Shown: piece by piece, positions 58,813-64,000 of the stretch
Layout of the letters: each line of letters begins with the position of its first letter
Numbering within the stretch: the first letter of the stretch is position 1
Source of the DNA: Streptacidiphilus jiangxiensis
GTDB lineage: Bacteria > Actinomycetota > Actinomycetes > Streptomycetales > Streptomycetaceae
NCBI RefSeq assembly: GCF_900109465.1
Contig: NZ_FOAZ01000011.1
Span: forward strand, 1-64,000
Length of the DNA: 64,000 nucleotides
Reading direction: 5' to 3'
Made by a program: the position numbers and the translations under genes
The notes under the pieces: model-generated
Database searches by the model: none
What the model was told of the DNA's origin: nothing
What the model saw: the letters and a program-made list of their open reading frames with translations, nothing else

Positions 58813-59802
58813 TCAGTAACGGTCGCCGGTCGGCGCCGGGAGCGCGTCGAGCTCGGCGAGGTCCGCCGCACCCAGCGTCAGCGCGGCCGCGCCCGCGTTG
58901 TCGGCCAGGTACTTGGGCGTCTTGGTCCCCGGGATCGGCACGACGTACCGGCCCTGGGCCAGCACCCACGCCAGTGCGACCTGGGCCGACGTCGCGCCGT
59001 GCCGCTCGGCGACGGCCTTGACCGTCTCGACGAGCGCCTGGTTGGCGGCCAGCGCGTCCGCCTGGAAGCGGGGCAGCGTGCTGCGCCAGTCGTCGGCCGG
59101 CAGGTCCTGCGCGCCCGAGAAGCGCCCGGCCAGGAAACCACGGCCCAGCGGGGAGAACGGCAGGAACGCGATGCCCTGGCTCTCGCAGTACGGCAGCACG
59201 TCGGCCAGGGGGTCGCGGGTCCACAGCGACAGCTCGGACTGGACCGAGGCCACCGGGTGCACGGACTGGGCCCGCTTGATCTCCTCCACGCCCACCTCGG
59301 AGAGCCCGATCGCGCGCGCCTTGCCCGCGGCGACGACCTCGGCCATGGCGCCCCAGGACTCCTCGAGCGGCACCTCCGGATCCACCCGGTGCAGCTGGTA
59401 CAGATCCACGTGGTCGGTGCCGAGACGCCGCAGGCTCGCGTCGATCGCGGCGCGGATGTGCTCGGGTCGCGCGTTGCGGTCCAGGGCGGCGGAGCTGCCG
59501 CGCAGCCCGCCCTCGGGCAGGACCAGCCCGACCTTGGTGGCCAGCACGGCCCGCTCGCGGTGCCCGTCGCCGAGCGCCCGACCGACCAGCTCCTCGTTGA
59601 CGAACGGCCCGTAGACGTCGGCGGTGTCGATCAGCGTCACACCGAGGTCCAGCGCCTGCCGGATCACGCCGACCGAGGCGTCGTCGTCCCGCCCGCTCGG
59701 GTCGTAGGCGTGCGACATGCCCATGCAGCCCAGGCCGACGACGCCCACGACGGGTCCGTCGGTGCCGAGCGTGGTGGTGCGGATGGTGGTGCTGCTGCTC
59801 AT
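58813..59802 (-). CDS. Aldo/keto reductase (AKR superfamily)
   Basis: 329-aa NADPH-dependent oxidoreductase of the YakC/aldo-keto class. The TIM-barrel start VVGLGCMGMSHAYDPSG, catalytic Asp and Tyr in TLIDTADVYGPFVNEELVGRAL (residues about 58-79), Lys in AVLATKVG and His in VDLYQLHRVDPEVPLEE are all present, and the cofactor-site PIPGTKTPKYLADNAGA closes the barrel. Substrate unassigned. The ATG at 59802 follows GGGGACCC. Divergent from a MarR gene with a perfect palindrome in the gap, so it is probably its target. Confidence 0.93.
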   Translation of the reverse strand: MSSSTTIRTTTLGTDGPVVGVVGLGCMGMSHAYDPSGRDDDASVGVIRQALDLGVTLIDTADVYGPFVNEELVGRALGDGHRERAVLATKVGLVLPEGGLRGSSAALDRNARPEHIRAAIDASLRRLGTDHVDLYQLHRVDPEVPLEESWGAMAEVVAAGKARAIGLSEVGVEEIKRAQSVHPVASVQSELSLWTRDPLADVLPYCESQGIAFLPFSPLGRGFLAGRFSGAQDLPADDWRSTLPRFQADALAANQALVETVKAVAERHGATSAQVALAWVLAQGRYVVPIPGTKTPKYLADNAGAAALTLGAADLAELDALPAPTGDRY

Positions 59803-59848
59803 CTGCGGGTCCCCTGTGCCTCTGCGGATGGTTCGTGATCAAGGATAG

Positions 59849-59861
59849 TTGAGGTCCTCAA
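59849..59861. promoter_or_regulatory. MarR-type operator TTGAGGTCCTCAA
   Basis: Perfect 13-base palindrome with a single central T, in the middle of the 82-bp gap between the divergent AKR and MarR genes. It probably overlaps both promoters, giving joint control. Confidence 0.75.
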
Positions 59862-59884
59862 TTTCACGGACGTAGACTCACTCC

Positions 59885-60322
59885 ATGAGCACCAGCAAGG
59901 CGGATCTGATGGACGTGATCGCGGCCGTCGGCGGGGCGTACTACCAGGACTTCGCCGCCGTCGCGGCACGGCACGGGCTGACCCCCGTCCAGGCCAAGGT
60001 GCTGGGCGCGGCGGTCCGCGCGCCGCTGCCGATGCGCGCCCTGGCCGAGGCGCTGGTCTGCGACGCCTCGAACGTCACGGGCATCGTCGACCGCCTCGAG
60101 GCCCGCGGCCTGGTCCGCCGTGAGGCCGGTCCCCAGGACCGCCGAGTCAAGATCGTCACCGCGACGGACGAGGGCCGCGAGGCGATCCTCGCCGTGCGCG
60201 AGGACATGAAGTCCGTCCACGACGCCCTCGACCGCCTCGACGCGTCCGAGCGCGACACCCTCCACGAGATCCTGCAGAAGCTCCTCCCGGAGCTCAGCCA
60301 GGCATCTGCCCAGGGGCACTAG
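59885..60322 (+). CDS. MarR-family transcriptional regulator
   Basis: 145-aa MarR protein: core LTPVQAKVLGAAVRAPLPMRALAEALVCDASNVTGIVDRLEARGLVRREAGPQDRRVKIVTATDEGREAI with the winged helix-turn-helix at residues about 47-105 and flanking dimer helices. No redox Cys pair is visible apart from one Cys (VCDASN). Divergent from the aldo/keto reductase with an operator between them. Its last codons (QGH, then TAG) lie in the left end of repeat copy D, so the repeat supplies its stop. Confidence 0.9.
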   Translation: MSTSKADLMDVIAAVGGAYYQDFAAVAARHGLTPVQAKVLGAAVRAPLPMRALAEALVCDASNVTGIVDRLEARGLVRREAGPQDRRVKIVTATDEGREAILAVREDMKSVHDALDRLDASERDTLHEILQKLLPELSQASAQGH

Positions 60323-60407: not shown

Positions 60408-61775
60408 CTACGCGGGAAAGGCGGGCAGGACGGTCTCGATGAGCCAGTCGTGGAGGAGTTCCTCCACCGGCGTGACGGCGTAGCGACGGACGTGGGCCAG
60501 GAAGAGTTCGGTGCTCACCACGGAGTGGCGGTGCAGGCGGGTCCAGTCGCGCAGCATGCGGAAGAACGCCTCGTCGCCGAGGGCCACGCGCAGCGCGTGG
60601 ACGGTGACGCCGCCGCGCTGGTAGAGGCGGTCGTCGAACATGAGGCGGCGGCCCGGGTCGGCGAGGCGGAGGTCCTGGGGGAGCGACGCGAGCAACTGGT
60701 ACGCCTTCGCCGCGCGCTCCGCCGCGCTCGCGCCGCCCGCGCGCTCGGACCAGAGCCACTCGGCGTACTTGGCGAAGCCCTCGTTGAGCCAGATGTTCCG
60801 CCAGTCCGCGACGGACAGGCTGTTGCCGAACCACTGGTGCGCCAGCTCGTGCGCGACCATCCGCTCCGAGGCCCAGCCGGGCTCCAGGTGGTTGGTGCCG
60901 AACGTGGCCATCGCCTGCGCCTCGACGGGGACGTCCAGCTCCTCGTCGACGACCACGGCGGTGTAGCGGTCGAAGGGGTAGGGGCCGAAGAGGTCCTGGA
61001 AGAGCCGCATCATCGCCGGCTGCCGGGAGAAGCCCGCGGCGAAGGCCGGGACCAGCGGGTGCGGCGCCCAGCCGAACTGGGGGACCTCCTCCGCGTCCGG
61101 GTCGTCGAGGCGGATCTGGTGCAGCTGGCCGATCGCGACGCCGACGAGGTAGCTGGAGGTCGGCGCGGGCTGGTCGTAGACCCACGTGGTGCTGGAGGAC
61201 TTCACCGTCCGGGTCAGCAGCCGTCCGCCCAGGACGACCGCGTACGGCGAGGGCGTCGTCAGGGAGATCTGGTACGAGGCCTTGTCGGCGGGACGGTCGT
61301 TGCAGGGGTACCACGAGGGGGCGCCGATCGGCTGGCTGGCGACGAGCGCGCCGTCGTCCAGCTCCTCCCAGCCGATGCCGCCCCAGGGGCTGCGGACCGG
61401 TCTCGGGTTGCCCGTCCAGTGCACCTCGACGGTGAACGCGGCGCCGGGCGGCAGGGGCTTGGCCGGGCGCAGACGCAGCTTGCCCGCGCGATGGGCGTAG
61501 TGCGGGGCCTTGCCGTTGACCAGGACTCGGCCGAGCCGGAAGCCCGCGGCCAGGTCCAGGGTGAACTCGGCGAGCGGGCCGACCGCAGGGGCCGCTATGG
61601 CGTTGAGCCGGGCCGTGCCGGCCAGCCGGTTCGGGTCCGGGCGGTAGTCGAGCGCGATCTCGTAGCGGTGCACGTGGTAGCGCGGATCACCGCTGGTCGG
61701 GAAGTACGGGTCGACCTCGGGCAGGCTCACGCCGCCCGCAGCGCTGTGCTGCTGCCGGGTCTCTCGGGGACTCAC
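60408..61775 (-). CDS. M1-family zinc metallopeptidase (aminopeptidase N-like), partner of the Pls-type synthetase
   Basis: 455-aa M1 peptidase. The zinc site HELAHQWFGN at about residue 308 and NEGFAKYAEW (third ligand Glu, 18 residues after the second His) are intact. The N-terminal beta domain (VHRYEIALDYRPDPNRLAGTARLNAIA) and YVGVAIGQLH-like segment are present. The exopeptidase GAMEN loop is altered to VEAQAMATFG. No signal peptide or clear membrane helix. The start is GTG (61775) with GGAAG five bases upstream. It lies 66 bases after the Pls-like gene on the same strand; an M1 peptidase next to pls is known in epsilon-poly-L-lysine producers, where it can degrade the polymer. That role here is inference. 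Confidence 0.88.
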   Translation of the reverse strand: MSPRETRQQHSAAGGVSLPEVDPYFPTSGDPRYHVHRYEIALDYRPDPNRLAGTARLNAIAAPAVGPLAEFTLDLAAGFRLGRVLVNGKAPHYAHRAGKLRLRPAKPLPPGAAFTVEVHWTGNPRPVRSPWGGIGWEELDDGALVASQPIGAPSWYPCNDRPADKASYQISLTTPSPYAVVLGGRLLTRTVKSSSTTWVYDQPAPTSSYLVGVAIGQLHQIRLDDPDAEEVPQFGWAPHPLVPAFAAGFSRQPAMMRLFQDLFGPYPFDRYTAVVVDEELDVPVEAQAMATFGTNHLEPGWASERMVAHELAHQWFGNSLSVADWRNIWLNEGFAKYAEWLWSERAGGASAAERAAKAYQLLASLPQDLRLADPGRRLMFDDRLYQRGGVTVHALRVALGDEAFFRMLRDWTRLHRHSVVSTELFLAHVRRYAVTPVEELLHDWLIETVLPAFPA

Positions 61776-61841
61776 CGGTCTTCCGCTCCCTGCCGCCGTG
61801 CCTTCGGTGCCGTGTGCCGTGTTCTGTGCCTCGGCAGGAGG

Positions 61842-64000
61842 TCAGTCCTGCCAGGCCTCGATCGGGTTGCCGAGCCAGCGGGTGTCCGCAGGCACCGACT
61901 CGCCGCCCATGACGAGCGAGGCGGGACCGAGGGTGGTCCGGGCGCCGACCCGGCTGCCGGGGAGCACGATGCCACCCGGACCCAGGGTGGCCCCTTGATC
62001 GAGGATCACAGTATCCATGCGCATGATCCGGTCGTGGAAGAGATGGGTCTGCAACACGCATCCGCGGTTGACGCTGACCCCGTCGCCGAGGGTGACCAGA
62101 TCCGACTCCGGCAGCCAGTAGCTCTCGCACCACACGCCCCGGCCCACGTGCACGCCGAGCGAGCGCAGCCAGGCGTTCATGAGGGGCGTGCCCGTCGTCC
62201 GGCCGACCAGCCACGGCACGGCCAGCACCTCGACGAAGGTGTCCGCCAGCTCGTTGCGCCACACGAAGCCGCTCCACAGCGGGTGGTCCACGGCCTTGAA
62301 GCGGCCGACCAGCAGCCACTTGGCCGCCACGGCCACCGCGCCGGCCAGCAGGCCCGCGCCGAGCAGGGCGACGCCCGCGAGCACGAGGGCGTCCGCCTGC
62401 CACAGCACGCACAGCACGGCGCCGGTCAGTACCGCGAGCGCGGCCGAGCAGAAGACCGGGACGAGCCGGCACAGCTCGACCAGGCCGCGCGCCCACAGCA
62501 GCCGGGCGGGCGGGTCGTAGGTGAGGCCCTCGTCGGACTTCGCCGCGGCACGCGGCAGGCGGACCGGGGGCAGGCCGAGGTAGGACGAGCCCTTCTTGGC
62601 CTTCTTCGGCGTCGCCGACAGCACGCCGACCAGGCCGCCGTCGGGGACGGAGCGGCCGGCGCCGGTCATGCCGGAGTTGCCGAGGAAGGCGCGGCGGCCG
62701 ATCTCGGCCTTGCCGATGCGCAGCCAGCCGCCGCCCAGCTCGTACGGGGCGGTCAGGGTGTCGTCGGCCAGGAAGGCGTCCTCGCCGACGGTGGTCAGGC
62801 TGGGCAGCGCGAGGACCGTGGAGATTTCAGCGCCGCGGCCGACCTTCATGCCGAGCAGCCGCAGCCAGACGGGGGTGACCAGGCCCGCGTAGAGCGGGAA
62901 GAGCACGTCGCGGGCGGCGTCCATGAGCTGGCTGACCGTCCACGCCTGCCAGCCGACGCGGCTGTGCACGGGGTGGTGGCCGGTGCGCAGGCCGATGCTG
63001 AGCAGCCGGACGCCGGCCAGCACCAGCAGCGCGTAGGCCGCGCCGTAGGCGAGCGCCGCCGGGACGACGGCGACCAGCGCACCGCGCAGCGCGGCGGCGC
63101 CGCCGTCCGTCGGGGCGACGAACTGCGCCGCGACCAGTGCCGCGGGCAGGGCTGCGAGGAAGGGCAGCAGGGTCAGGAAGGCGCCGCTGGCACCGTAGGC
63201 GGCGGACCAGCGCAGGTGACGGGCCGGGCGCCGCTTGGGCCAGGCGTGGTCGGCCTTGCCGAGCTTCTCCGCGGGCACACCGCCCCAGCGCTGACCGGTC
63301 GGGATCTGACCGGTGACGCCGGAGCCGGGCACGACCTCGGCCCGCTTGCCGACGCGGGCGCCGGGGAAGAGCACGGTGCGGGTGCCGACGACGGCCTGCG
63401 AGCCGACCTTGATCGCGCCGACCTCCAGCCGGTCCCCGTCCAGCCACCAGCCGGACAGGTCCACCTCGGACTCGACCGCGCAGCCACGGCCCAGCTTCAG
63501 CAGGCCGGTGACCGGCGGCAACGAGTGCAGGTCCACGTCCTCGGCGATGCGGGCGCCGAGCGCGCGGCCGTAGCGGATCAGCCAGGAGCCGGACAGCTCG
63601 GACGCACCGCTGAACTCCGCCAGGCGCTCCGCCGTCCACAGCCGCAGGTGGGCGGAGCCGCCGCGCGGGTAGGTGCCGGGGGCCAGACCGCGCAGCACCA
63701 GTCGGGCGCCACCCGCGGCGATCGCGATGCGTCCGGGCGGGGTGAACAGCAGCGCGGCGGCGGAGCCGACCAGCCACCACGAGGCTGTCGGTGCCCAGGT
63801 GTACGGTCCGAACCAGTGCAGGACGTTGCCGAGGGCGAGCAGAGCCGTCGCCCAACGCAGTCCGACAAGAGTGAGGAGCGGCACCAGCAGCGCCAGTTGG
63901 ATCGCCTGTGCGCGGCGCGGTGTCGGGGCGATGTCACGCTGCTCGCCGCCGCCGCGCGCCGAGCGGTCCAGCAGCTTGGCCTGCTTGCGCAGCGTGGGGT
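61842..64000 (-). CDS. Pls-type non-ribosomal peptide synthetase, C-terminal membrane half (5' end beyond window)
   Basis: The open frame continues past a GTG at 63884 to the window edge (reading PTLRKQAKLLDRSARGGGE and onward), so the N-terminal part is missing; the usual family gene has adenylation and thiolation domains there. The visible part is the NRPS terminal domain of the Pls/TIGR02353 family: six membrane segments (TM1-2 about 63910-63720, TM3-4 about 63190-62970, TM5-6 about 62470-62310) surround three soluble left-handed-helix-like domains with hexapeptide repeats (VGSQAVVGTRTVLFPGARVGKRAEVVPGSGV; VTLGDGVSVNRGCVLQTHLFHDRIMRMDTVILDQGATLGPGGIVLPGSRVG). This is the architecture of epsilon-poly-L-lysine synthetase, where these domains add amino acids iteratively. 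The actual amino acid is not readable without the adenylation domain. Confidence 0.87.
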   Translation of the reverse strand, partial: PTLRKQAKLLDRSARGGGEQRDIAPTPRRAQAIQLALLVPLLTLVGLRWATALLALGNVLHWFGPYTWAPTASWWLVGSAAALLFTPPGRIAIAAGGARLVLRGLAPGTYPRGGSAHLRLWTAERLAEFSGASELSGSWLIRYGRALGARIAEDVDLHSLPPVTGLLKLGRGCAVESEVDLSGWWLDGDRLEVGAIKVGSQAVVGTRTVLFPGARVGKRAEVVPGSGVTGQIPTGQRWGGVPAEKLGKADHAWPKRRPARHLRWSAAYGASGAFLTLLPFLAALPAALVAAQFVAPTDGGAAALRGALVAVVPAALAYGAAYALLVLAGVRLLSIGLRTGHHPVHSRVGWQAWTVSQLMDAARDVLFPLYAGLVTPVWLRLLGMKVGRGAEISTVLALPSLTTVGEDAFLADDTLTAPYELGGGWLRIGKAEIGRRAFLGNSGMTGAGRSVPDGGLVGVLSATPKKAKKGSSYLGLPPVRLPRAAAKSDEGLTYDPPARLLWARGLVELCRLVPVFCSAALAVLTGAVLCVLWQADALVLAGVALLGAGLLAGAVAVAAKWLLVGRFKAVDHPLWSGFVWRNELADTFVEVLAVPWLVGRTTGTPLMNAWLRSLGVHVGRGVWCESYWLPESDLVTLGDGVSVNRGCVLQTHLFHDRIMRMDTVILDQGATLGPGGIVLPGSRVGARTTLGPASLVMGGESVPADTRWLGNPIEAWQD

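Follow-up and report, generated by a model that had tools for sequence, protein, structure and literature searches.

A pls-pldII-type gene pair in Streptacidiphilus jiangxiensis with a predicted lysine-type synthetase and a partner peptidase lacking a recognisable export signal

The first 64,000 bases of contig NZ_FOAZ01000011.1 (C44; 310 kb of a 9.5-Mb genome) of the soil bacterium Streptacidiphilus jiangxiensis, referred to here as the window, end inside a gene for a Pls-type polylysine synthetase. This gene is followed on the same strand by a gene for an M1 zinc metallopeptidase. We consider it very probable that the two form an operon of the pls-pldII type, in which epsilon-poly-L-lysine (epsilon-PL) is made by the synthetase and hydrolysed by the M1 partner, the peptidase most likely serving as self-protection in the cytosol. 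Epsilon-PL is antimicrobial and is sold as a preservative; the means by which producing strains avoid harm from it are under dispute. The pair is ordinary in kind; what it adds to the papers examined is a lineage other than that of Streptomyces albulus and a partner peptidase without a recognisable signal, and the one unexpected feature open to test is where that peptidase is predicted to reside.

RESULTS

A Pls-type synthetase at the window edge

The window edge cuts the synthetase gene, and extension of the open reading frame (ORF) into the contig gave a protein of 1288 amino acids (P0001; C44:61842-65708, minus strand). The portion inside the window (61842-64000, minus strand) encodes residues 571-1288, as judged from TIGR02353, the full ORF, the match to PDB entry 7wew, and an AlphaFold model. 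The original prediction, made from the window sequence, had read this portion as the C-terminal half of a Pls/TIGR02353-type nonribosomal peptide synthetase (NRPS) with its adenylation domain beyond the window, and both statements hold. P0001 scores 800.7 bits against TIGR02353, the family named Pls/PosA (cut-off 423.1), which identifies the NRPS terminal domain, and the extended ORF encodes adenylation (A) and thiolation (T) domains beyond the window, up to C44:65708. The only Pfam domains in P0001 are AMP-binding, AMP-binding_C, and PP-binding; the Pfam scan found neither a condensation nor a thioesterase domain, in keeping with Pls/PosA architecture. The T-domain serine is conserved in 102 of 102 aligned rows.

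Six membrane helices and three tandem hexapeptide-repeat domains had also been proposed, and structural modelling agrees with both. Modelling of the last 718 residues with AlphaFold (mean predicted local distance difference test [pLDDT] score 82.5, lower in places along the first beta-helix) gave beta-helix domains and six long helices in three pairs, at residues ~598-633, 657-671, 832-861, 881-904, 1082-1104, and 1108-1133. The modelled arrangement is that of six membrane helices between three tandem domains. A hydropathy scan (KD19 >= 1.5) backs four of the six, so the six-helix assignment is taken from the model; the scan also flags residues 935-953, outside the helices, and one stretch of the A domain. 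Pfam gave no match for the hexapeptide domains in P0001 at E <= 0.001. A structural comparison of the model with PDB entries, in turn, picked out hexapeptide acetyltransferases (best E value 3.3e-4), with query template modelling scores (TM-scores) of 0.09-0.14 that are low because a single small domain is matched at a time, and three hexapeptide-like stretches are legible in the P0001 sequence.

Adenylation pocket and predicted monomer

The best PDB match of P0001 is 7wew, a Streptomyces A domain entitled "Epsilon-poly-L-lysine synthase" (E value 4e-195), with 64% identity over 502 columns of the A domain. The choice among lysine, beta-lysine, diaminobutyrate, and other monomers had been left to the specificity residues, which could be read once the sequence was extended. 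Pocket columns were placed by motif, at positions that we take to follow GrsA numbering. Their spacing is within one residue of the PosA numbering in PMC10522769. The ten-residue pocket of P0001, DAESIGTVVK, is letter-identical to that of 7wew and thus of the lysine type. Of the 136 rows compared, counting 7wew and the window gene, 134 have this code (an initial comparison covered 103 rows); the other two are a second synthetase of the same genome on contig C75 (DAESVGTVVK) and L100, which has a broken frame. One further locus with broken frames, L101, was excluded from codes, trees, and N-terminus counts.

The predicted monomer is therefore L-lysine, since the pocket matches the proven synthase at every position and is unlike the codes reported for other monomers in this family: DMEHNGTVSK for ornithine, DGESISVVNK for one beta-lysine type, and DSECYGGVTK for one arginine user (PMC10522769). 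Lysine enzymes of the family have alanine at the second pocket position (PMC10522769), as does the window gene. A non-basic monomer was rejected on the strength of this code. Use of a different basic monomer (ornithine, beta-lysine, or diaminobutyrate) by the synthetase, or synthesis of a mixed polymer, is highly improbable: pocket codes are degenerate and relatives do take ornithine, arginine, or beta-lysine (PMC10522769), but the code is that of a proven lysine enzyme and unlike each of those listed.

Two more Pls paralogues are found in the genome, at C84:553173-557114 (L007:7045-11121) and C75:322-4197 (L008:268-4410). Both have a lysine-type pocket, one with V for I at position 5. We found no M1 neighbour for either, although the C75 gene ends 267 bp from its contig end and a neighbour could have been cut off. 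The genome is thus predicted to encode three polylysine synthetases, which makes the strain a candidate producer.

A conserved gene pair

Between the end of the pls stop codon at 61842 and the M1 start codon, a GTG at 61775, lies a 66-bp gap (61776-61841, minus strand, by direct sequence reading). An M1 zinc peptidase 66 bp on, on the same strand, is what had been predicted, and the Pfam match to Peptidase_M1 bears this out. A ribosome-binding-like GGGAG precedes the GTG within the gap, and the one terminator-like site there (L006:5806-5820) is on the opposite strand, against a mean of 0.7 from shuffled sequences. Co-transcription of the two genes across the gap appears likely.

Named loci used for comparison are the best 80 of at least 593 relatives, selected for their resemblance to the window gene, so they lean to its lineage. 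An M1 gene lies directly 3' of pls on the same strand in all 80, and likewise in each of the 14 genus genomes, where broken frames affect pls of G012 and both genes of G013. This conservation argues against a chance neighbourhood, which we reject. A sample of the phylum covered 296 genomes, 14 of them with the family and at most three candidates scored per genome. It listed 20 matches, three of them from the window genome; 14 of the other 17 were fetched, and three further Pls-like rows were left out. Ten of the 14 fetched stretches were Pls-like, all ten with an M1 gene directly 3' on the same strand, and four were distant relatives without one. No M1 neighbour was found for seven Pls paralogues retrieved within the genus, nor for 10 of the 20 family loci picked by their similarity to 7wew.

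The partner is a two-domain M1 peptidase

The partner gene (60408-61775, minus strand) encodes a PldII-like two-domain M1 zinc metallopeptidase of 455 amino acids, recognised by Pfam, motifs, and AlphaFold/Foldseek. Pfam E values are 1.2e-24 for Peptidase_M1 and 9.7e-8 for the M1 N-terminal domain. HEXXH-X18-E occupies residues 309-332, and all 115 partner peptidases compared retain the zinc ligands and the catalytic glutamate. GXMEN, a motif of M1 aminopeptidases, is replaced by VPVEAQ. Loss of aminopeptidase function was considered as the meaning of this change and rejected: every one of the 115 partners keeps the motif glutamate, Glu285, and the HEXXH glutamate follows it 25 residues later, a spacing equal to that of E271 and E296 in PDB entry titles for leukotriene A4 (LTA4) hydrolase. 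Only the surroundings of the glutamate have thus changed.

The AlphaFold model (pLDDT 91.5) has as its closest solved fold the two-domain M1 enzyme of Deinococcus radiodurans (PDB 6a8z and 6koz; Foldseek E value 1.8e-39), with TM-scores of 0.86/0.90 and 29% identity. C-terminal domains of larger M1 enzymes are absent, and the cleft should therefore be open. The same fold also does general peptide trimming, so the partner might be a general aminopeptidase placed beside pls for shared regulation only and inactive on the polymer. The Deinococcus match and the lack of any assay of the window-type lineage among the papers examined leave some room for this, but an M1 gene follows pls at each window-type locus examined, across many families, and the S. 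albulus relative degrades epsilon-PL (PMC4361855, PMC9223678). We regard a mere general aminopeptidase as very unlikely.

A second small M1 peptidase is encoded in the genome at C64:249223-250500 (L177). It is 39% identical to the window enzyme, has a hydrophobic N-terminus, and is a candidate for an exported Pld enzyme; a similar match (35-39% identity) occurs in 11 of 14 genus genomes. A whole-genome search using two peptidases as queries gave no further close M1 beyond those on C44 and C64, and no match in the genome to the S. albulus-type PldII closer than the window peptidase.

Partner peptidases with and without an export signal

N-termini of partner peptidases separate by synthetase type. 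Each peptidase was assumed to begin at the first in-frame start codon close to the pls stop; L181, L185, and L189 were left out of the count as the same genomes as L141, L139, and L145, and one set of 107 window-type partners holds one genome twice (L011 and L163). All 26 S. albulus-type partners carry RRx[LVFMI] and, after it, a hydrophobic stretch; their hydropathy score (KD15) is at least 1.36 in 26 of 26 and at least 1.4 in 24 (the other two 1.36 and 1.37). Among 116 window-type partners, KD15 is at most 1.08 in all 96 that can be scored, the other 20 having N-terminal tails of fewer than 15 residues. The RR motif is present in one of the 116. The N-terminus of the window peptidase, VSPRETRQQHSAAGG, is without a signal. 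Peptidase type and synthetase type go together: S. albulus-type synthetases lie beside 20 of 20 signal-bearing peptidases (>= 59% identity), and window-type synthetases beside nine of nine window-type peptidases.

The window peptidase is predicted to be cytosolic because it has no recognisable export signal. We found no mention of an unexported pls partner in the open-licence PMC listings searched or in the papers cited here. Export by a non-classical route is an unlikely competitor, in which the operon would be the same and the peptidase would degrade extracellular polymer late in growth, as is described for S. albulus PldII. PldII is described outside the membrane (PMC9223678), and partners of both types have a common fold family, motifs, and gene position. 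The signal itself speaks against it, being found in 26 of 26 S. albulus-type partners, whereas window-type partners show the RR motif once in 116 and pass a lax signal test twice.

Lineage of the window gene

A tree of the C-terminal part grouped the S. albulus-type genes with the M1-less Streptomycetaceae paralogues in a single branch of 27 rows (support 100). The window gene falls outside this branch, among M1-linked genes of several other families, and it apparently belongs to a broader lineage ancestral to the S. albulus type. Window-type loci are represented in the tree by a hand-picked subset (49 rows); the S. albulus-type and M1-less genes were sampled in one family, plus the plasmid records L159 (S. 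albulus-type) and L161 (M1-less). Among M1-less exceptions, L161 is placed elsewhere and L146 falls among S. albulus-type genes. L201, at 53% identity, is intermediate in both synthetase and peptidase type. M1 linkage was considered as a separator of clades and rejected, as S. albulus-type loci also carry an M1 gene; in the earlier tree behind that idea, 7wew was the sole S. albulus-type row and L064 and L100 had been left out.

M1-linked genes across most of the tree fit an ancestral pair, with later loss of the peptidase from the paralogues. Support for the order of events is weak because the outgroup is very distant, the drawn root is the midpoint, and the S. albulus-type and M1-less genes come mainly from a single family; L173 is also a long branch.

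A Pls/PosA synthetase gene was also seen on plasmids of the Mycobacterium avium complex (five records). In L161, the one such record examined (Mycobacterium intracellulare plasmid NZ_CP023152.1, 73376-77356), the synthetase gene lies near PE/PPE and WXG100 genes, overlaps a cysteine-synthase-like gene by 4 bp, and has no M1 neighbour. The cysteine-synthase-like neighbour may mean that a different monomer is made on site.

Proposed function

For the window pair, we infer a product and a linkage like those established for S. albulus. The synthetase would adenylate L-lysine and load it on the T domain, and the three membrane-embedded C-terminal domains would join each lysine by its alpha-carboxyl to the epsilon-amine of its neighbour. 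The resulting epsilon-PL would leave the cell, and the adjacent two-domain M1 peptidase would hydrolyse its epsilon amide bonds. Every scissile carbonyl in epsilon-PL adjoins a free alpha-amine, which makes within-chain cutting by an aminopeptidase possible: Glu285 would anchor that amine and allow a cut at any residue, if the open cleft admits the remaining chain. The signal-less peptidase would then most likely protect the cell by degrading, in the cytosol, polymer that was not exported.

A wider proposal has, in our estimate, about an even chance of being right. The common ancestral operon of Actinomycetia would have encoded an intracellular epsilon-PL hydrolase, an aminopeptidase cutting within the chain, that protected the cytosol or edited chains ahead of export. 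The exported PldII would be a later offshoot with a twin-arginine-type signal, and further offshoots, among them the two other synthetases of this genome, would have lost the peptidase. If such an operon with an internal hydrolase is indeed widespread, the partner serves cytosolic self-protection or chain editing, which matters for the debate over whether Pld and PldII influence yield and chain length.

Several points weigh against assigning the window pair to epsilon-PL synthesis and cytosolic hydrolysis. Direct orthology to the proven S. albulus gene fails, as the fully supported branch excludes the window gene, and identity to seven S. albulus-type synthetases is 55-59%. The pocket code cannot tell which copy makes polymer, since the two paralogues on C84 and C75 have the same or nearly the same pocket, and for these no M1 neighbour was found. 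Export signals were judged by simple hydropathy and motif tests rather than by a trained predictor, the 20 short tails escaped scoring, and two window-type partners passed the lax test. Among the published systems, inactivation of Pld and PldII left yield and chain length unaltered according to a review (PMC8506220), while repression of pldII changed chain length (PMC9223678), and the role of the peptidase is accordingly disputed. PldII is called endo-type by the review (PMC8506220) and is given as both endo-type and a one-by-one remover of lysine from the N-terminus in PMC9223678, so internal cutting is not settled. Finally, no epsilon-PL was detectable, under the conditions tried, in cultures of Corynebacterium variabile or in Corynebacterium glutamicum with its synthetase gene (PMC8117764).

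Genes flanking the pair

A gene for the RNA helicase HrpA (NCBIfam equivalog, 2042 bits; L006:9820-13932, on C44 beyond the window) lies on the same strand and ends 110 bp 5' of pls. It is a neighbour in 7 of 14 genus genomes and was rejected as a functional partner, the two having only location in common. A palindrome just 5' of the pls start, CCCTTGTCAACAAGGG, was considered as an operator and dropped for poor conservation in the genus. Seven genus loci could be aligned upstream (five further loci had no anchor); the palindrome is perfect only in the window strain, near-perfect in L096, and unmatched in the other five. On the 3' side of the peptidase gene (58813-60322) are genes for a MarR-type regulator (plus strand) and an aldo-keto reductase (minus strand), both assigned by Pfam. 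The Pfam annotation gave no tie between these two genes and the pls operon; their conservation was not examined.

Comparison with known systems

Synthesis and turnover of a cationic poly(amino acid) had been suggested for the pair, and this is supported by what is published for S. albulus pls-pldII and for Corynebacterium (PMC4361855, PMC9223678, PMC8117764). In S. albulus, the two genes form one operon with a 4-bp overlap, and the pldII product degrades the polymer (PMC4361855, PMC9223678); PldII is described as the main epsilon-PL degrading enzyme, translationally coupled to pls and located outside the membrane (PMC9223678). The window pair has the same gene order, strand, domain make-up, lysine pocket, and M1 partner with HEXXH-X18-E. 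It differs in having a 66-bp gap instead of the overlap, in lying outside the S. albulus-type branch (55-59% identity in the synthetase and 43-46% in the peptidase), and in its peptidase, for which no signal was found and which has VEAQ where the signal-bearing S. albulus-type enzymes have VENQ at the GXMEN site.

PosA, the delta-poly-L-ornithine synthetase of Acinetobacter baumannii, is of the same family and architecture (PMC10522769). Unlike the window gene, it has the pocket DMEHNGTVSK and an ornithine product, and it forms a single-gene operon with no obvious co-transcribed neighbour in the published description (PMC10522769). The C. variabile operon, compared here by its published description, likewise joins a Pls-type synthetase to a peptidase; its synthetase is 51% identical to Pls and yielded epsilon-PL in S. 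coelicolor (PMC8117764). With the S. albulus and Corynebacterium pairs already published, the window pair is a member of a described system.

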